This document shows positions 8,889-23,496 of a DNA stretch of 35,971 nt, piece by piece. The stretch covers positions 1 to 35,971 of the forward strand of contig NZ_BONC01000074.1 of the NCBI RefSeq assembly GCF_016862515.1, in the 5' to 3' direction. Made by a program: the position numbers and the translations under genes. The notes beneath the pieces were generated by a model. The model was not told the origin of the DNA, ran no database searches, and saw only the letters and a program-made list of their open reading frames with translations. How positions within the stretch are numbered: the first letter of the stretch is position 1; every line of letters starts with the position of its first letter. The DNA comes from Asanoa iriomotensis (GTDB taxonomy: Bacteria; Actinomycetota; Actinomycetes; Mycobacteriales; Micromonosporaceae).

Positions 8889-10058
8889 GTGACAGAACTG
8901 GCGACGACCGGCGCGGACCTCTCGCGGCTGCGCGAGCTCAACTCGTTGAGCATCGTGCGCGCGCTGCGCGACCACCCGCCGTCCACCGTCACCGAGCTGT
9001 CGCAGCGCACCGGGCTGTCCCGCCCCGCGGTCGACGTGATCGCGCAGGGCCTGGTCACCGACGGCTGGGCGAGCGTGCTGGAGCCCGGCGCGAGCAGTGC
9101 CGTGGGCCGGCCGGCGCGTCGCTACCAGTTCCGGGCGGGCGCGGGCCACGTGCTCGGCGTCGACGTGGGCGTGCACAAGATCCTGGCGTTGCTGGCCGAC
9201 CTCGACGGCAACATCGTGCAGACGGTACGCCGGTCGGTCGCCGCGGACGCCGGGCCGGCCGCCCGTCTCGCCGAGCTCGACAAGGTCGTCAACGCGTGCG
9301 TGGCCAAGGCGGGCAAGACCCCGTCGGACATCTGGGCGGTCACGGTCGGCGTCACCGGCGCCGTCGACGCGGCCGGGCAGACCAGCTTCTTCACGCCGCT
9401 GCCGGGCTGGAAGGGCGTCAACCTGACCACCCACCTGAGCGCGCGGTTCACCTGCCCGGTCATCGTGGAGAACGACTGCAAGCTCGCGGCCCTCGCGGAA
9501 CGCTGGAAGGGCGCGGCCAGCGACGCGGACGACATCGTCTACCTGCTCGCCGGCATGCGCAACGGCGCCGGCCTCATCATCGACGGCGTCCTGCGCCGCG
9601 GCTACGGCGGCGCCGCGGGCGAGATCGGCGCCCTCAAGCAGGTGCGCTGGCTGAACGCACCCGCCCACCTGCAGAACTGCCCCGGCGTCCCCGACACGGT
9701 CAGCCCGGACGACGCGGCGGCCTGGGTCTTCACGGCGGCCCGCGACGGCAACCGCGCGGCCCGCGCGGCGGTCAACCGCTACGTCAAGGACCTGGCCGTC
9801 GGCGCGGCGGCGCTGGTCCTCACCCTGGACCCGCAGGTCGTCATCTTCGGCGGCGGCTTCTCGCGGTCCGCCGACCTGGTGCTGGACCCGCTGCGCACCG
9901 AGTTGTCACGCCTGTGCCTGCGCATGCCGGAGGTCCGCGCATCGACGCTGGGCGCGGACTCGGTCGCGCTGGGCGCCCTGAAACTGTCACTGAACGAAAT
10001 CGACGACCGCCTGTTCGGCGCGGGCCTGTCGGCTCCGGTGGCACCCCGCCGCCAGTAG
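8889..10058 (+). CDS. ROK-family transcriptional repressor
   Basis: About 389 residues. The N-terminus holds a winged helix-turn-helix (VTELSQRTGLSRPAVDVIAQ), then a ROK sugar-kinase-like domain: VLGVDVGVHKILALLADLDG, VTVGVTGAVD, VIVENDCKLAAL, GAGLIIDGVLRRGYGGAAGE and a C-terminal VIFGGGFSRS. The usual zinc motif (CxCGxxGCxE) after the GE-G segment is absent; a single Cys (LQNCPG) remains. AAAGGG at 8877-8882 touches ATG 8883 but is 6 nt before GTG 8889, so GTG is preferred. It lies behind the GH36 gene in the same orientation and probably controls the sugar operon and itself. The last about 19 codons overlap the first unit of a repeat array, so the C-terminus may be a replacement. Confidence 0.9.
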   Translation: MTELATTGADLSRLRELNSLSIVRALRDHPPSTVTELSQRTGLSRPAVDVIAQGLVTDGWASVLEPGASSAVGRPARRYQFRAGAGHVLGVDVGVHKILALLADLDGNIVQTVRRSVAADAGPAARLAELDKVVNACVAKAGKTPSDIWAVTVGVTGAVDAAGQTSFFTPLPGWKGVNLTTHLSARFTCPVIVENDCKLAALAERWKGAASDADDIVYLLAGMRNGAGLIIDGVLRRGYGGAAGEIGALKQVRWLNAPAHLQNCPGVPDTVSPDDAAAWVFTAARDGNRAARAAVNRYVKDLAVGAAALVLTLDPQVVIFGGGFSRSADLVLDPLRTELSRLCLRMPEVRASTLGADSVALGALKLSLNEIDDRLFGAGLSAPVAPRRQ

Positions 10059-10362
10059 TCTGGTGGCCGGCGACCCACCGCCGTGCCTCGCCGGTGACCT
10101 GGTCGCGCGCACCCGGTTCGTCGACGACCGCCCTGTTTCATCGCGGGCCGGCCGGCTCCGGTCGCCCCCGCCGCCCAGTAGCCAGGTGATCCACGAGCCA
10201 CCGCCGCGCCTCGCCGGCGACCTGGTCGCGGGCAATTGGTTCCTCGACCATCGCCTATTCAGCGCGGGCCTGCCGGCTCCCCTGACCCGCCGCCAGTCAC
10301 CAGATAATCCACGAACCAGCGCCCGGCTTCGGCGGTGACCAGGTCCAGGGCGCCCGGCTCCT
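10001..10362. repeat. Three-copy degenerate tandem repeat (about 120 bp each) covering a hydrolase 3' end
   Basis: Units run 10001-10121, 10122-10244 and 10245-10362, each opening CGACSAYCGCC and ending in a similar CCGGYTCST. The third unit is the true 3' end of the minus-strand hydrolase. Read on the minus strand, the middle unit still encodes a homologous tail (EPIARDQVAGEARRW, then LVDHLATG and EPAGPR) and its own TGA. The first unit encodes EPGARDQVTGEARRW with the stop lost, and it overlaps the ROK gene's last codons in antisense. Confidence 0.75.
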
Positions 10363-20590: not shown

Positions 20591-20923
20591 TCACCGATCC
20601 CGGTCGGCCAGCTCGTCTACCACCAGCAGGTCGGGTCGTTGCAGGCCCGAGCGGTAGGCCACCCGGCCCACCATGTGTGCCGCGACCGGGGCCGTGGTCA
20701 GTTGGAAGGCTCCGATCAGTACCAGGGTGGTGATGTCGACCGTGTTGCGGAAGCGGAGCGCGCAGCCGAGCAGGACCAGGAGCAGGCCGAGCACCTGCGG
20801 CTTCGTGGCCGCGTGCATGCGGGACAGGATGTCCGGGAACCGGGTCAGCGCGACCCCCGCGGCCAAGCTGAACAAGGCCCCGGCGACGATGAACGCGGAC
20901 GCGACCGCGTCGATCGCGCTCAC
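20591..20923 (-). CDS. mnhG: Mrp-type Na+/H+ antiporter subunit G
   Basis: 110 residues from GTG 20923, with three membrane helices: VASAFIVAGALFSLAAGVAL, VLGLLLVLLGCAL and ITTLVLIGAFQLTTAPVAAHMV. The motif RFPDILSRMHAATKPQVLG is the family signature (FPDxxxRxHAATK). It is the last subunit of the hetero-oligomeric Mrp antiporter. GTG overlaps the mnhF stop (GTGA). The hydrophilic tail SGLQRPDLLVVDELADRDR is slightly longer than usual. Confidence 0.9.
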   Translation of the reverse strand: MSAIDAVASAFIVAGALFSLAAGVALTRFPDILSRMHAATKPQVLGLLLVLLGCALRFRNTVDITTLVLIGAFQLTTAPVAAHMVGRVAYRSGLQRPDLLVVDELADRDR

Positions 20924-21180
20924 TTGCCGTTCCGGGCGGCGAACCGGGCGACGCTGACCGAGCTGACGAAGCCCAGCACCGACAGGACAACCAACACCGG
21001 CAACGCCGTCGCGTCGCCGGTGAAGGCTGCCTCCGCCGCGATCGCGGCGACGATGATCGCGAGCAACACGTCGGTGGCGACGACCCGGTCCAGGATGGAC
21101 GGTCCACGGACGACCCGCACGAGCGCGAGGAGCGCGGCGCCCGCGAGGATAACGGTCACGGTGACAGCTACGGCGGTCAT
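20920..21180 (-). CDS. mnhF: Mrp-type Na+/H+ antiporter subunit F
   Basis: 86 residues from ATG 21180, with three helices: VAVTVTVILAGAALLALVRV, LLAIIVAAIAAEAAF and LPVLVVLSVLGFVSSVSVA. The conserved RGPSILDRVVATDVL follows helix 1. ATG overlaps the stop of the preceding small repeat ORF (ATGA) and its own stop overlaps mnhG (GTGA). In typical mrp operons F directly follows E; here 271 bp of repeat-built ORF separate them. Confidence 0.9.
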   Translation of the reverse strand: MTAVAVTVTVILAGAALLALVRVVRGPSILDRVVATDVLLAIIVAAIAAEAAFTGDATALPVLVVLSVLGFVSSVSVARFAARNGK

Positions 21181-21455
21181 GCTCGTGCCTCGCTCCGCGG
21201 GCCCCGACCCGACCGCATGCGACCGAACTGACCCCACGAGCACCGCTCACTGACCGCTCGCGCCCCGCTCCGCGACTCCCGACCTGACCCCATGCGACCG
21301 AACTGACCCCGCGAGCACCGCTCGCTCACCGCCCGCGCCTCGCCCCGCAAGCCAGGACCTACCCGCAAAAGCCCGAACCGACCACGCGAGACCCGCCCAC
21401 TCACCGCCCGCGCCTCGCTGCACGAACCCCGACCCGACCGACTGCCTGAGCTCAT
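21177..21455 (-). CDS. Repeat-encoded small protein inside the mrp operon (hypothetical)
   Basis: The frame runs from ATG 21455 to TGA 21177 and encodes 92 residues. Its ATG overlaps the mnhE stop and its stop overlaps the mnhF ATG, both as ATGA. The protein is 3.7 copies of a 25-residue unit. The best unit is QFGRMGSGRESRSGARAVSE followed by RCSRG; the first copies are more degenerate (RFGLLRVGPGLRGEARAVSE). It is rich in Arg, Ser and Gly, very basic, with one Cys in most units and no membrane helix. No family is recognised. Either it is a real coupled polypeptide that keeps ribosomes flowing from mnhE to mnhF, or a DNA repeat that happens to stay open. Its exact fit at both ends favours translation. 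Confidence 0.5.
   Translation of the reverse strand: MSSGSRSGRGSCSEARAVSGRVSRGRFGLLRVGPGLRGEARAVSERCSRGQFGRMGSGRESRSGARAVSERCSWGQFGRMRSGRGPRSEARA
21181..21455. repeat. 75-bp tandem repeat, 3.7 copies, exact period
   Basis: Unit starts are at 21181, 21256, 21331 and 21406, exactly 75 bp (25 codons) apart. Each opens GCYCGYGCCYCGC. Units 1 and 2 share GCGACCGAACTGACCCC. Unit 2 also carries the hairpin GCGAGCACCGCTCGC. The period being a multiple of three keeps the minus-strand frame open. Confidence 0.85.
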
Positions 21456-22000
21456 AACACTCCCCCTTCGGTTGTGCGGCGGACCTCGTCCGGCGAGCCC
21501 ACCGCGGCGACGATGCGTGACTCCAGCGCGAGGACGTCCTGGCGGAAGCGTTCCGCCTCCGCGCGGTCCCGGACGTCCAGGACGTGGATCCAGAGCACCC
21601 CTTCGGCGCGGTCGACCTCGACGATCAGGCTGCCCGGCACCAGTGACAGCGCCTCCGCCGTTAGCGTCAGGTTGAGGTCCGTGCCGACCCGCAGGCCTAC
21701 CCCGATGATCGCGCCGTGTGGGGTGTAGCCGAACCGGAACGCGAGCCAGGCGATCTGGACGCTTGCCACGAACAGGTCGCGGAGGAACCACGCCACGAAC
21801 CGGGCCAGCGGCACGGGTCGCAGGCGGCCCGCGAAGACGACCGGTGGCAGCGGGAAGACCAGCAGCACGATGCCCGCGACGACCAGGCCGCCGAGCAGGT
21901 TGGCCCACGAGAACGTGCCCCACAGCAGGATCCACACGAGCGCCATGCCGAGCACCGCGACCGCGCGGTTGGCTCGGCGTGTCCGGGCGTCGCCGGTCAT
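21452..22000 (-). CDS. mnhE: Mrp-type Na+/H+ antiporter subunit E
   Basis: 182 residues from ATG 22000, which overlaps the mnhD stop (ATGA). Two or three N-terminal helices (VLGMALVWILLWGTFSWANL; LLGGLVVAGIVLLVFPLPPV; FVAWFLRDLFVASVQIAWLA) precede a cytoplasmic domain with TLTAEALSLVPGSLIVEVD and LWIHVLDV, the COG1863 hallmarks. The C-terminus (RFRQDVLALESRIVAAVGSP) is longer than in bacillar MnhE. It is thought to help assemble the Mrp complex. Confidence 0.92.
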   Translation of the reverse strand: MTGDARTRRANRAVAVLGMALVWILLWGTFSWANLLGGLVVAGIVLLVFPLPPVVFAGRLRPVPLARFVAWFLRDLFVASVQIAWLAFRFGYTPHGAIIGVGLRVGTDLNLTLTAEALSLVPGSLIVEVDRAEGVLWIHVLDVRDRAEAERFRQDVLALESRIVAAVGSPDEVRRTTEGGVL

Positions 22001-23496
22001 CGGGCGCTCACCGCGCGGACCGCCTCGACGTACGGTGCGCGGGCCAGCAACTCCGTGGCCGCGTCGAACGTCACGTCGAACAGCGGGCCCGCGAGGACCG
22101 TCAGCGCGAGGCCGCCCACGACCAGCGCGACGGTCGAGGCGACCATCAAGCCGGGCAGACCGGCCTCGAAAGGCGCGGCGGGCGGCCGGCGCCAGAAGGC
22201 GAGGTTCCAGACGCGGGCGACCGCGTACAACGTGAGCAGGCTTGTTGCCAGTCCCGCGGCCACCAGCGCCCACGGCAGGCCGCCGCCCGCCGCGACGCCG
22301 GCCTCGATCAGGCCCAGCTTGCCGAGGAAGCCGGAGAACGGCGGAATGCCCGCCAGGTTCATCGCCGGCAGGAAGAACAGGATCGCCAGCAGCGGCGAGA
22401 GGCTGGCCAGGCCGCCCAGGCGGTCGAGTGACGTGCTGCCGCCGAAGCGTTCGACCAGGCCGACCACCAGGAACAACGTCGTCTGGATGGTGATGTGGTG
22501 GACCGTGTAGAAGATCGCGGCCGACAGGCCGGACGCGCTGGCCAGGCCGATCCCGAACAGCAGGTAACCGATGTGGCTGACCAGCGTGAACGACAGCAGC
22601 CGCTTGATGTCGGACTGCGCTATCGCGCCGAGGATGCCTACCAACATGGTCAGCAGGGCCAGCACGAGCAGCAGGTTCGGGGTCGGTCCGCCGGGGAACA
22701 GCAGCGTCTCCACCCGGATGATCGCGTAGATGCCGACCTTCGTCAGCAGGCCCGCGAACACCGCGGTGACCGGGGCCAGCGCCGTCGGATAGCTGTCGGG
22801 CAGCCACGCCGACAGCGGGAAGACCGCGGCCTTGATGCCGAACGCCAGCAGCAGCACGCAGTTGAGCATCAGCCGCAAACCCGACGGCAGCGCGTCGAGG
22901 CGGCCGGCCAGCTGAGCCATGTTGACCGTGCCCGCGGCCGCGTACACCAGGCCGATCCCGGTCAGGAAGATCAAGGACGACAAGAGGCTGACGACGACGT
23001 ACGTCGTACCCGCGCGAACTCGATCTTCCGTTGCGCCGACGGTGATCAGCACATAGCTCGCCACGAGCAGGATCTCGAAGCCCACGTACAGGTTGAACAG
23101 GTCCCCGGCCAGGAACGCGTTGGTGACGCCGGCGGTCAGCACCAGATACGACGGGTGGTAGATCGACAGCGGCGTCTCCTCGTTGCCGTCCGCCATGCCC
23201 TGGCCGATCGAGTAGACGAGCACGCTGAGCGTGACCGCCGCGGAGACGACCAGCATCAGGGCGGCGAACCGGTCCGCGACCAGCACGATGCCGGTCGGGA
23301 CCGGCCAGCCGCCGACCGCGACCACGAGCGTGCCGTTGGTCGACACCTCCACCAGCAGCGCGACCGACACCCCGAGCACCGCGGTCAGCGCGGTCAGGCT
23401 GACCAGCCGCTGCGCCCGCGGGAAGCGCGTCAACACCAGCGTCACGGCCGCGCCGAGCAGCGGCAGCACGACCGGCAACGGCACCAACGCGGTCAC
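21997..23496 (-). CDS. mnhD: Mrp-type Na+/H+ antiporter subunit D
   Basis: 499 residues from GTG 23496, with about 14 membrane helices. It belongs to the NuoM/N-like family of proton-translocating subunits: LAGDLFNLYVGFEILLVASY, LTKVGIYAIIRVETLLFPGG, AQSDIKRLLSFTLVSHIGYL, FYTVHHITIQTTLFLVVGLV and FFLPAMNLAGIPPFSGFLGK. The conserved Glu in VGFEILL, the Lys in LLTKVG and the HH pair match residues needed for ion transport in this family. The start overlaps the mnhC stop (GTGA). The in-frame extension to 23613 crosses mnhC and is rejected. Confidence 0.94.
   Translation of the reverse strand: MTALVPLPVVLPLLGAAVTLVLTRFPRAQRLVSLTALTAVLGVSVALLVEVSTNGTLVVAVGGWPVPTGIVLVADRFAALMLVVSAAVTLSVLVYSIGQGMADGNEETPLSIYHPSYLVLTAGVTNAFLAGDLFNLYVGFEILLVASYVLITVGATEDRVRAGTTYVVVSLLSSLIFLTGIGLVYAAAGTVNMAQLAGRLDALPSGLRLMLNCVLLLAFGIKAAVFPLSAWLPDSYPTALAPVTAVFAGLLTKVGIYAIIRVETLLFPGGPTPNLLLVLALLTMLVGILGAIAQSDIKRLLSFTLVSHIGYLLFGIGLASASGLSAAIFYTVHHITIQTTLFLVVGLVERFGGSTSLDRLGGLASLSPLLAILFFLPAMNLAGIPPFSGFLGKLGLIEAGVAAGGGLPWALVAAGLATSLLTLYAVARVWNLAFWRRPPAAPFEAGLPGLMVASTVALVVGGLALTVLAGPLFDVTFDAATELLARAPYVEAVRAVSAR

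Follow-up and report, generated by a model that had tools for sequence, protein, structure and literature searches.

The short open reading frame that separates mnhE from mnhF in this mrp operon is a dispersed repeat and not an accessory gene of the operon. With high probability, the frame consists of tandem units of a short mobile repeat, non-autonomous, whose targets are NTGA overlaps and, it appears, certain start codons. The repeat resembles the MIRUs (mycobacterial interspersed repetitive units), reportedly described by Supply et al. in 1997. The array lies in a window of 35,971 nucleotides (the whole stretch of DNA analysed), with the following features:

20920 to 21180, minus strand: mnhF (Pfam, PF04066)
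21177 to 21455, minus strand: fused array of the MIRU-like repeat, one 92-codon ORF between mnhE and mnhF
21177 to 21180, minus strand: ATGA in which the mnhF start overlaps the array stop
21180 to 21254, minus strand: unit 4 (75 nt)
21188 to 21191, minus strand: Shine-Dalgarno-like GAGG core of the last unit, 7 nt upstream of the mnhF ATG
21255 to 21329, minus strand: unit 3 (75 nt)
21330 to 21404, minus strand: unit 2 (75 nt)
21405 to 21455, minus strand: unit 1, shortened to 51 nt, starting with the ATGA common to the mnhE stop
21452 to 21455, minus strand: ATGA in which the array start overlaps the mnhE stop
21452 to 22000, minus strand: mnhE (Pfam, PF01899)
21460 to 21469, minus strand: GAAGGGGGAG, Shine-Dalgarno-like end of mnhE, 4 nt before the array ATG

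The first-pass annotation had described a 92-residue frame with start/stop overlaps on both sides, in an operon whose junctions are all 4-nt overlaps. Both observations held: the frame is bounded by ATGA at 21452-21455 and 21177-21180, and the four other mrp junctions that we read are likewise 4-nt overlaps (GTGA, GTGA and ATGA upstream; GTGA after mnhF). The exact 75-bp period that it reported was recovered by TRF (period 75, 3.4 copies, score 301), and the full units show pairwise identities of 85%, 72% and 71%. This period is, however, exceptional, because units of the wider family measure 71, 74, 77 or 80 bp.

We used BLAST with the window DNA to look for the repeat elsewhere, and found partial copies, the best at E 1.2e-9 in its own genome and at E 2.0e-13 in a genus mate. 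A pattern search then recovered complete copies, the first six of which to be extracted were 74 or 77 bp long; one, between trpC and trpB, translates as MSERSERSQLSRLRSGRGSRSEARA*. Two models were built, R1 from six own-genome units, two genus-mate units and three window units, and R2 without any window unit. Their E-values are rough, and the NTGA ends included in both bias them towards finding NTGA ends. At E<=1e-3, R1 gave 80 matches in the six genomes of the genus (27, 20, 12, 9, 7 and 5). Four of the 27 in the own genome (G000) are the window array, leaving 23 outside it and 76 non-window matches overall, which bears out the earlier suggestion of a repeat element lodged in the operon. Four of the genomes were absent from R1 training, and their best matches reached 1.6e-13, 1.7e-13, 2.8e-10 and 5.1e-10. 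R1, trained on three of the window units, matches all four, and R2 matches two of them (5.3e-12 and 3.8e-7). Because BLAST finds copies elsewhere and R2 detects window units on which it was not trained, the array is beyond chance. The repeat is short and dispersed through the genome between genes, as a MIRU is. A separate tandem array at window positions 10000-10345 (2.9 copies of about 123 bp, 79% matches) has no R1 match.

Copies of the repeat have a characteristic form. We checked 74 of the 76 non-window matches; the two omitted are the leading units of an array of three in G003 and are themselves intact 74-bp mini-ORFs. The first-pass annotation had set its reading against a repeat scattered between genes in all frames: the repeat is indeed scattered, but 66 of the 74 copies are mini-ORFs running from NTGA to NTGA without an inner stop, in a single orientation and frame. 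They measure 74 bp (38 copies), 77 bp (25), 71 bp (2) or 80 bp (1), all 2 mod 3, a length that gives a stop/start overlap at both ends of the copy. Sixty of the 66 run into an open frame that is 100 codons long or longer, five of the other six run into the next array unit, and 56 are preceded by at least 60 open codons up to the overlapped TGA. When all 394 RTGA sites of the window were taken as a control, 39% had a downstream frame of 100 codons or more and 26% had 60 open codons upstream. At such GC content, the open flanking frames are no more than moderate evidence.

The eight exceptions include a copy that has lost its 5' end (L078), a shortened copy (L156), two units inside a fused array (L144) and a 101-bp copy inside which the model misplaces the start (L146). 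In three others (L159, L120 and L162) the copy reads on into the downstream gene. L159 (G001) and L115 (G005) are the same junction in two species, and the former has no 3' half of the repeat, so that MSERSERGQLS is now the N-terminus of the downstream protein; by eye, this protein resembles an ABC ATPase. L162 and L120 are similar fusions. Apparent insertions at a start codon are seen at L068 and L081.

Evidence for movement comes from the trp operon. In all five genus mates trpC and trpB meet in an empty ATGA overlap, reading ...GGCCGGTGCG followed directly by ATGACCGAC... with small differences, and R2 finds no copy at this junction. Between the same flanks, the own genome holds exactly 74 bp extra, second ATGA included, such that the trpC stop overlaps the unit start and the unit stop overlaps the trpB start. 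Three outer relatives read at this place have a gap instead of an overlap. To judge from these filled and empty sites, the trpC/trpB copy is an insertion and the repeat is mobile. The trp operon of one genus mate (G001) carries a copy after trpB and not before it (L233, 2708-2785, the same as L100).

For the junction between mnhE and mnhF, we compared 30 listed of 51 places, 29 of them besides the window. In the mnhE/mnhF region of these 29 relatives among the matches listed, R1 found nothing better than E 0.1; 27 of the junctions are direct NTGA overlaps, in one the genes are separated by 5 nt, and one junction was unassigned. The four genus mates with mnhF all have no copy here, and the fifth has no mnhF match. 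Because its units are only 71-85% alike, the window array is no fresh insertion, and by their divergence it looks older than the trp copy; the mates may have emptied the site by loss of a copy.

These comparisons bear on the proposal that the array is a translational spacer setting the E:F ratio. As a spacer it comes near to what is probably its actual behaviour. That it was positively selected as a regulatory element tuning mnhE:mnhF is unlikely: it does lie between two subunits, and its fused frame saves re-initiation steps, but the same form occurs at unrelated junctions and is absent at mnhE/mnhF from the 29 relatives among the matches listed.

We aligned 52 of 55 extracted genus copies, dropping L101, L108 and L144 for odd length or misreading. 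Each end of the repeat can be drawn as a hairpin that has a GNA loop and a GA/AG step. The 5' end (GCGAGCGNAGCGAGC) hardly varies, and its hairpin is a possible one; the 3' end is variable in sequence while its pairing is kept, with 81.9% of cells paired as opposed to 71.7% in shuffled alignments and 26-46% in slid controls. Double changes fall in 69 cells, against 27.2 in shuffles, and affect nine of the 11 pairs; none of 500 shuffles reaches any of the five observed measures of covariation. Pairing is not universal: three of the 11 pairs fail to form in 29 to 31 of the 52 copies. Whole single copies fold no better than shuffles (z -1.6 to +0.4), and the case for the hairpin thus rests on covariation. 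The 32-nt 3' ends have a mean z of -1.7 by plain letter shuffles, with 46 of 71 below -1, in a set from which one misread copy was dropped and in which four others are one register off. Rfam gave nothing for window positions 20900-22100 at E<=0.1, nor for five loci at gathering thresholds. In 42 of the 52 copies the 3' arm contains GAGG, 7 nt upstream of the following ATG. We infer from this arrangement that the hairpin may conceal a Shine-Dalgarno sequence until the mini-ORF is translated.

The hairpins raise the alternative of a palindromic element of the REP type, mobilised by a Y1 transposase (RAYT/IS200-type) of the host genome, its ORF being incidental. Hairpins with the GNA loop and GA/AG step can be drawn at both ends and the 3' one covaries, as this alternative asks. 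It is nonetheless distinctly improbable: Y1_Tnp (PF01797) has no match in five of the six genus genomes, including the two richest in copies, and the sole match in the genus is partial and has an inner stop (L206, G001:C6:310197-310409). In addition, copy lengths differ in steps of three, which indicates that the reading frame matters.

An added accessory peptide was another possibility offered by the first-pass annotation, in effect a new subunit of the Mrp antiporter retained for its Arg/Ser/Gly-rich sequence. The open frame with ATGA at both ends, placed between E and F, is what such a gene would look like. Comparison of the junction across relatives, one of the checks proposed, did not bring out such a gene among the 29 listed, and the same repeat lies between unrelated genes such as trpC and trpB. 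Pfam has no match to the 92-aa frame. Codon changes between the three full units, also proposed as a check, are 4 synonymous to 12 non-synonymous, 5 to 10 and 5 to 5; there is no synonymous excess between the window units, and the array peptide shows no sign of selection. A functional subunit is therefore very improbable, and the peptide is likely to be inert, a by-product of insertion. A local tandem duplication left open by chance, with no mobile element involved, is scarcely credible. A neutral simulation does keep the array open in 34% of runs (an uninformative figure), but the unit's presence at many unlinked places contradicts this reading, R2 detects the array without window units and the trpC/trpB insertion is exactly 74 bp.

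Within the preferred reading, a tandem array of a mobile repeat, it remains to account for the single frame. The inner junctions of the window array have one base more than those of unfused arrays (GGGCGGTGA as against GGGCGTGA in G002), and this extra base per junction, giving the period of 75, merges the units into a single frame; the last inner junction reads GTCA in place of GTGA. Among extracted 74-bp copies, unit 4 is nearest to L066, L067 and L068 (74%, 73% and 69%). A second fused array, in genus mate G002, has units of 78, 78 and 80 bp that form one 79-codon frame with ATGA at both ends. Unfused arrays in the genus include one of five 77-bp units in G002 and one of three 74-bp units in G003. 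The G002 array (L163, G002:C1:4019678-4020064), whose five units are near-alike, might behave as a variable-number locus. MIRUs serve to type tuberculosis strains.

We propose the following course of translation. Ribosomes terminating on mnhE would re-initiate at once on the unit ATG by means of the Shine-Dalgarno-like end of mnhE (GAAGGGGGAG), which before the insertion would have served mnhF. As they translated the array they would open its terminal hairpin, in which GAGG lies 7 nt ahead of the mnhF ATG; termination at the final TGA would then be followed by re-initiation on mnhF. With a period of 75 rather than 74, the mini-ORFs are merged, and one termination and re-initiation step would replace several. 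The repeat would in this way maintain translational coupling, and its insertion would be nearly neutral for the operon.

We extended the search to 397 genomes of the order, under strict filtering at the cost of weak matches. Fifteen match at 1e-5: the own genome, 12 of another genus in the family and one in each of two other families. Outside the own genome, 23 of the 27 places listed were read; 22 are bounded by NTGA on either side, and the remaining one is cut off by its contig end. One genome, G123 of family f13, has at least 11 matches (for example L121, L135, L138 and L140-L143). Its copies that were read are very alike, start with GTGA, measure about 77 bp and suggest a recent burst. Four species of the other genus (L130, L131, L134 and L122) carry the repeat at one common junction, with the upstream end ...VDVLYAVLDPRIRY (by eye) and the copy doubled in one species; from the shared position, this is apparently an old insertion inherited by descent.

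A more distant form was found in a genus that we take to be mycobacterium-like because of its PPE proteins (six PPE matches in G043, none in the window genome). With the broader model R2, 29 of 40 genomes of this genus match at E<=0.01. We read 23 of the 30 loci listed: many resemble chance, and five are elements of 65 bp bounded by ATGA on either side, a span of 65 bp being found in 15 of the matches tabulated for the genus. Like the window family, these elements have a TGAGCGA...GCGAGCG-like start, a GCGAGG...GCATGA end, a length of 2 mod 3 and a tandem triplet; unlike it, they are shorter and have another middle. In direct comparison with the profile, the five copies match weakly (against 345 residues, E 7e-6 to 0.08). 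The two groups are likely to be of common descent, judging by these shared ends.

Neither plasmids nor phages gave a blastn match to one 78-nt copy, nor did plasmids to one 69-nt copy of the mycobacterial type. In IMG/VR, 24 contigs share a 22-base start pattern and none has the whole element; bare GTGAGCGAGCGNAGCGAGCGAA recurs, without the rest of the element, in unrelated and often AT-rich viral contigs (L207-L230). A literature search, mostly without subscription papers, returned no report of such elements outside mycobacteria.

A broader reading, which we hold tentatively and regard as plausible rather than probable, is that the repeats constitute an undescribed family of non-autonomous mobile 'coupling cassettes', present in several families of one actinobacterial order and related to MIRUs. 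Each would bring its own start, stop and hairpin-held Shine-Dalgarno sequence, jump only into NTGA overlaps or start codons, and be able to expand and fuse into repeat proteins or N-terminal tags of host genes. Were this so, MIRUs would be one branch of an older and wider class. Judging from the literature passages available, little is known of how MIRUs move or affect translation. Both questions become testable in harmless laboratory strains with a relative from other actinobacteria that offers an exact empty site among closely related species and a hairpin apparently carrying the ribosome-binding site. Puzzling short frames and N-termini of the 'MSERSER...' kind in these genomes would also be accounted for by the repeat, and fused arrays offer a route from a repeat to a new small protein.

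The closest known system is the MIRU. MIRUs are described as dispersed, without dyad symmetries, and as carrying small same-direction ORFs whose ends overlap neighbouring ORFs (PMC4473831). At a 4-nt overlap, a ribosome finishing one gene can start the next, and MIRUs are said to be apparently mobile and to insert at start codons, their ORF then being coupled at -4 nt and the gene little affected (PMC12548453). Three 77-bp MIRUs lie between senX3 and regX3 in H37Rv (PMC4213456). A class I MIRU makes up the entire leader, 77 nt long, of a gene whose counterpart in a relative has none (PMC4128351), a case that resembles the apparent start-codon insertions at L068 and L081. Set against these descriptions, the repeat shares the short dispersed form, the small ORF along the gene direction, ends overlapping neighbouring stops and starts at -4 nt, insertion at start codons, tandem arrays and 77-bp units. 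It differs in its covarying terminal hairpin, MIRUs having been described without dyad symmetry, and we therefore class it, by the printed description, as a MIRU-like variant. Its host also lies outside the PPE-rich genus, its commonest unit is 74 bp, and in two of its arrays the units share a single ORF. When the published MIRU4 typing primer was used for a scan, the 12 records retrieved included no mycobacterium. On sequence grounds the repeat probably acts like a MIRU, and kinship with MIRUs is likely.

Two other systems are more distant. Like REP and BIME elements, the repeat is short, dispersed and palindromic; unlike them, it keeps a reading frame, and no intact Y1 transposase was found in the six genus genomes. 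REP elements have no known tie to a reading frame. The Rickettsia palindromic elements are also mobile short repeats that keep reading frames open, but they insert inside coding sequences, whereas the repeat described here inserts between coding sequences and brings its own start and stop.
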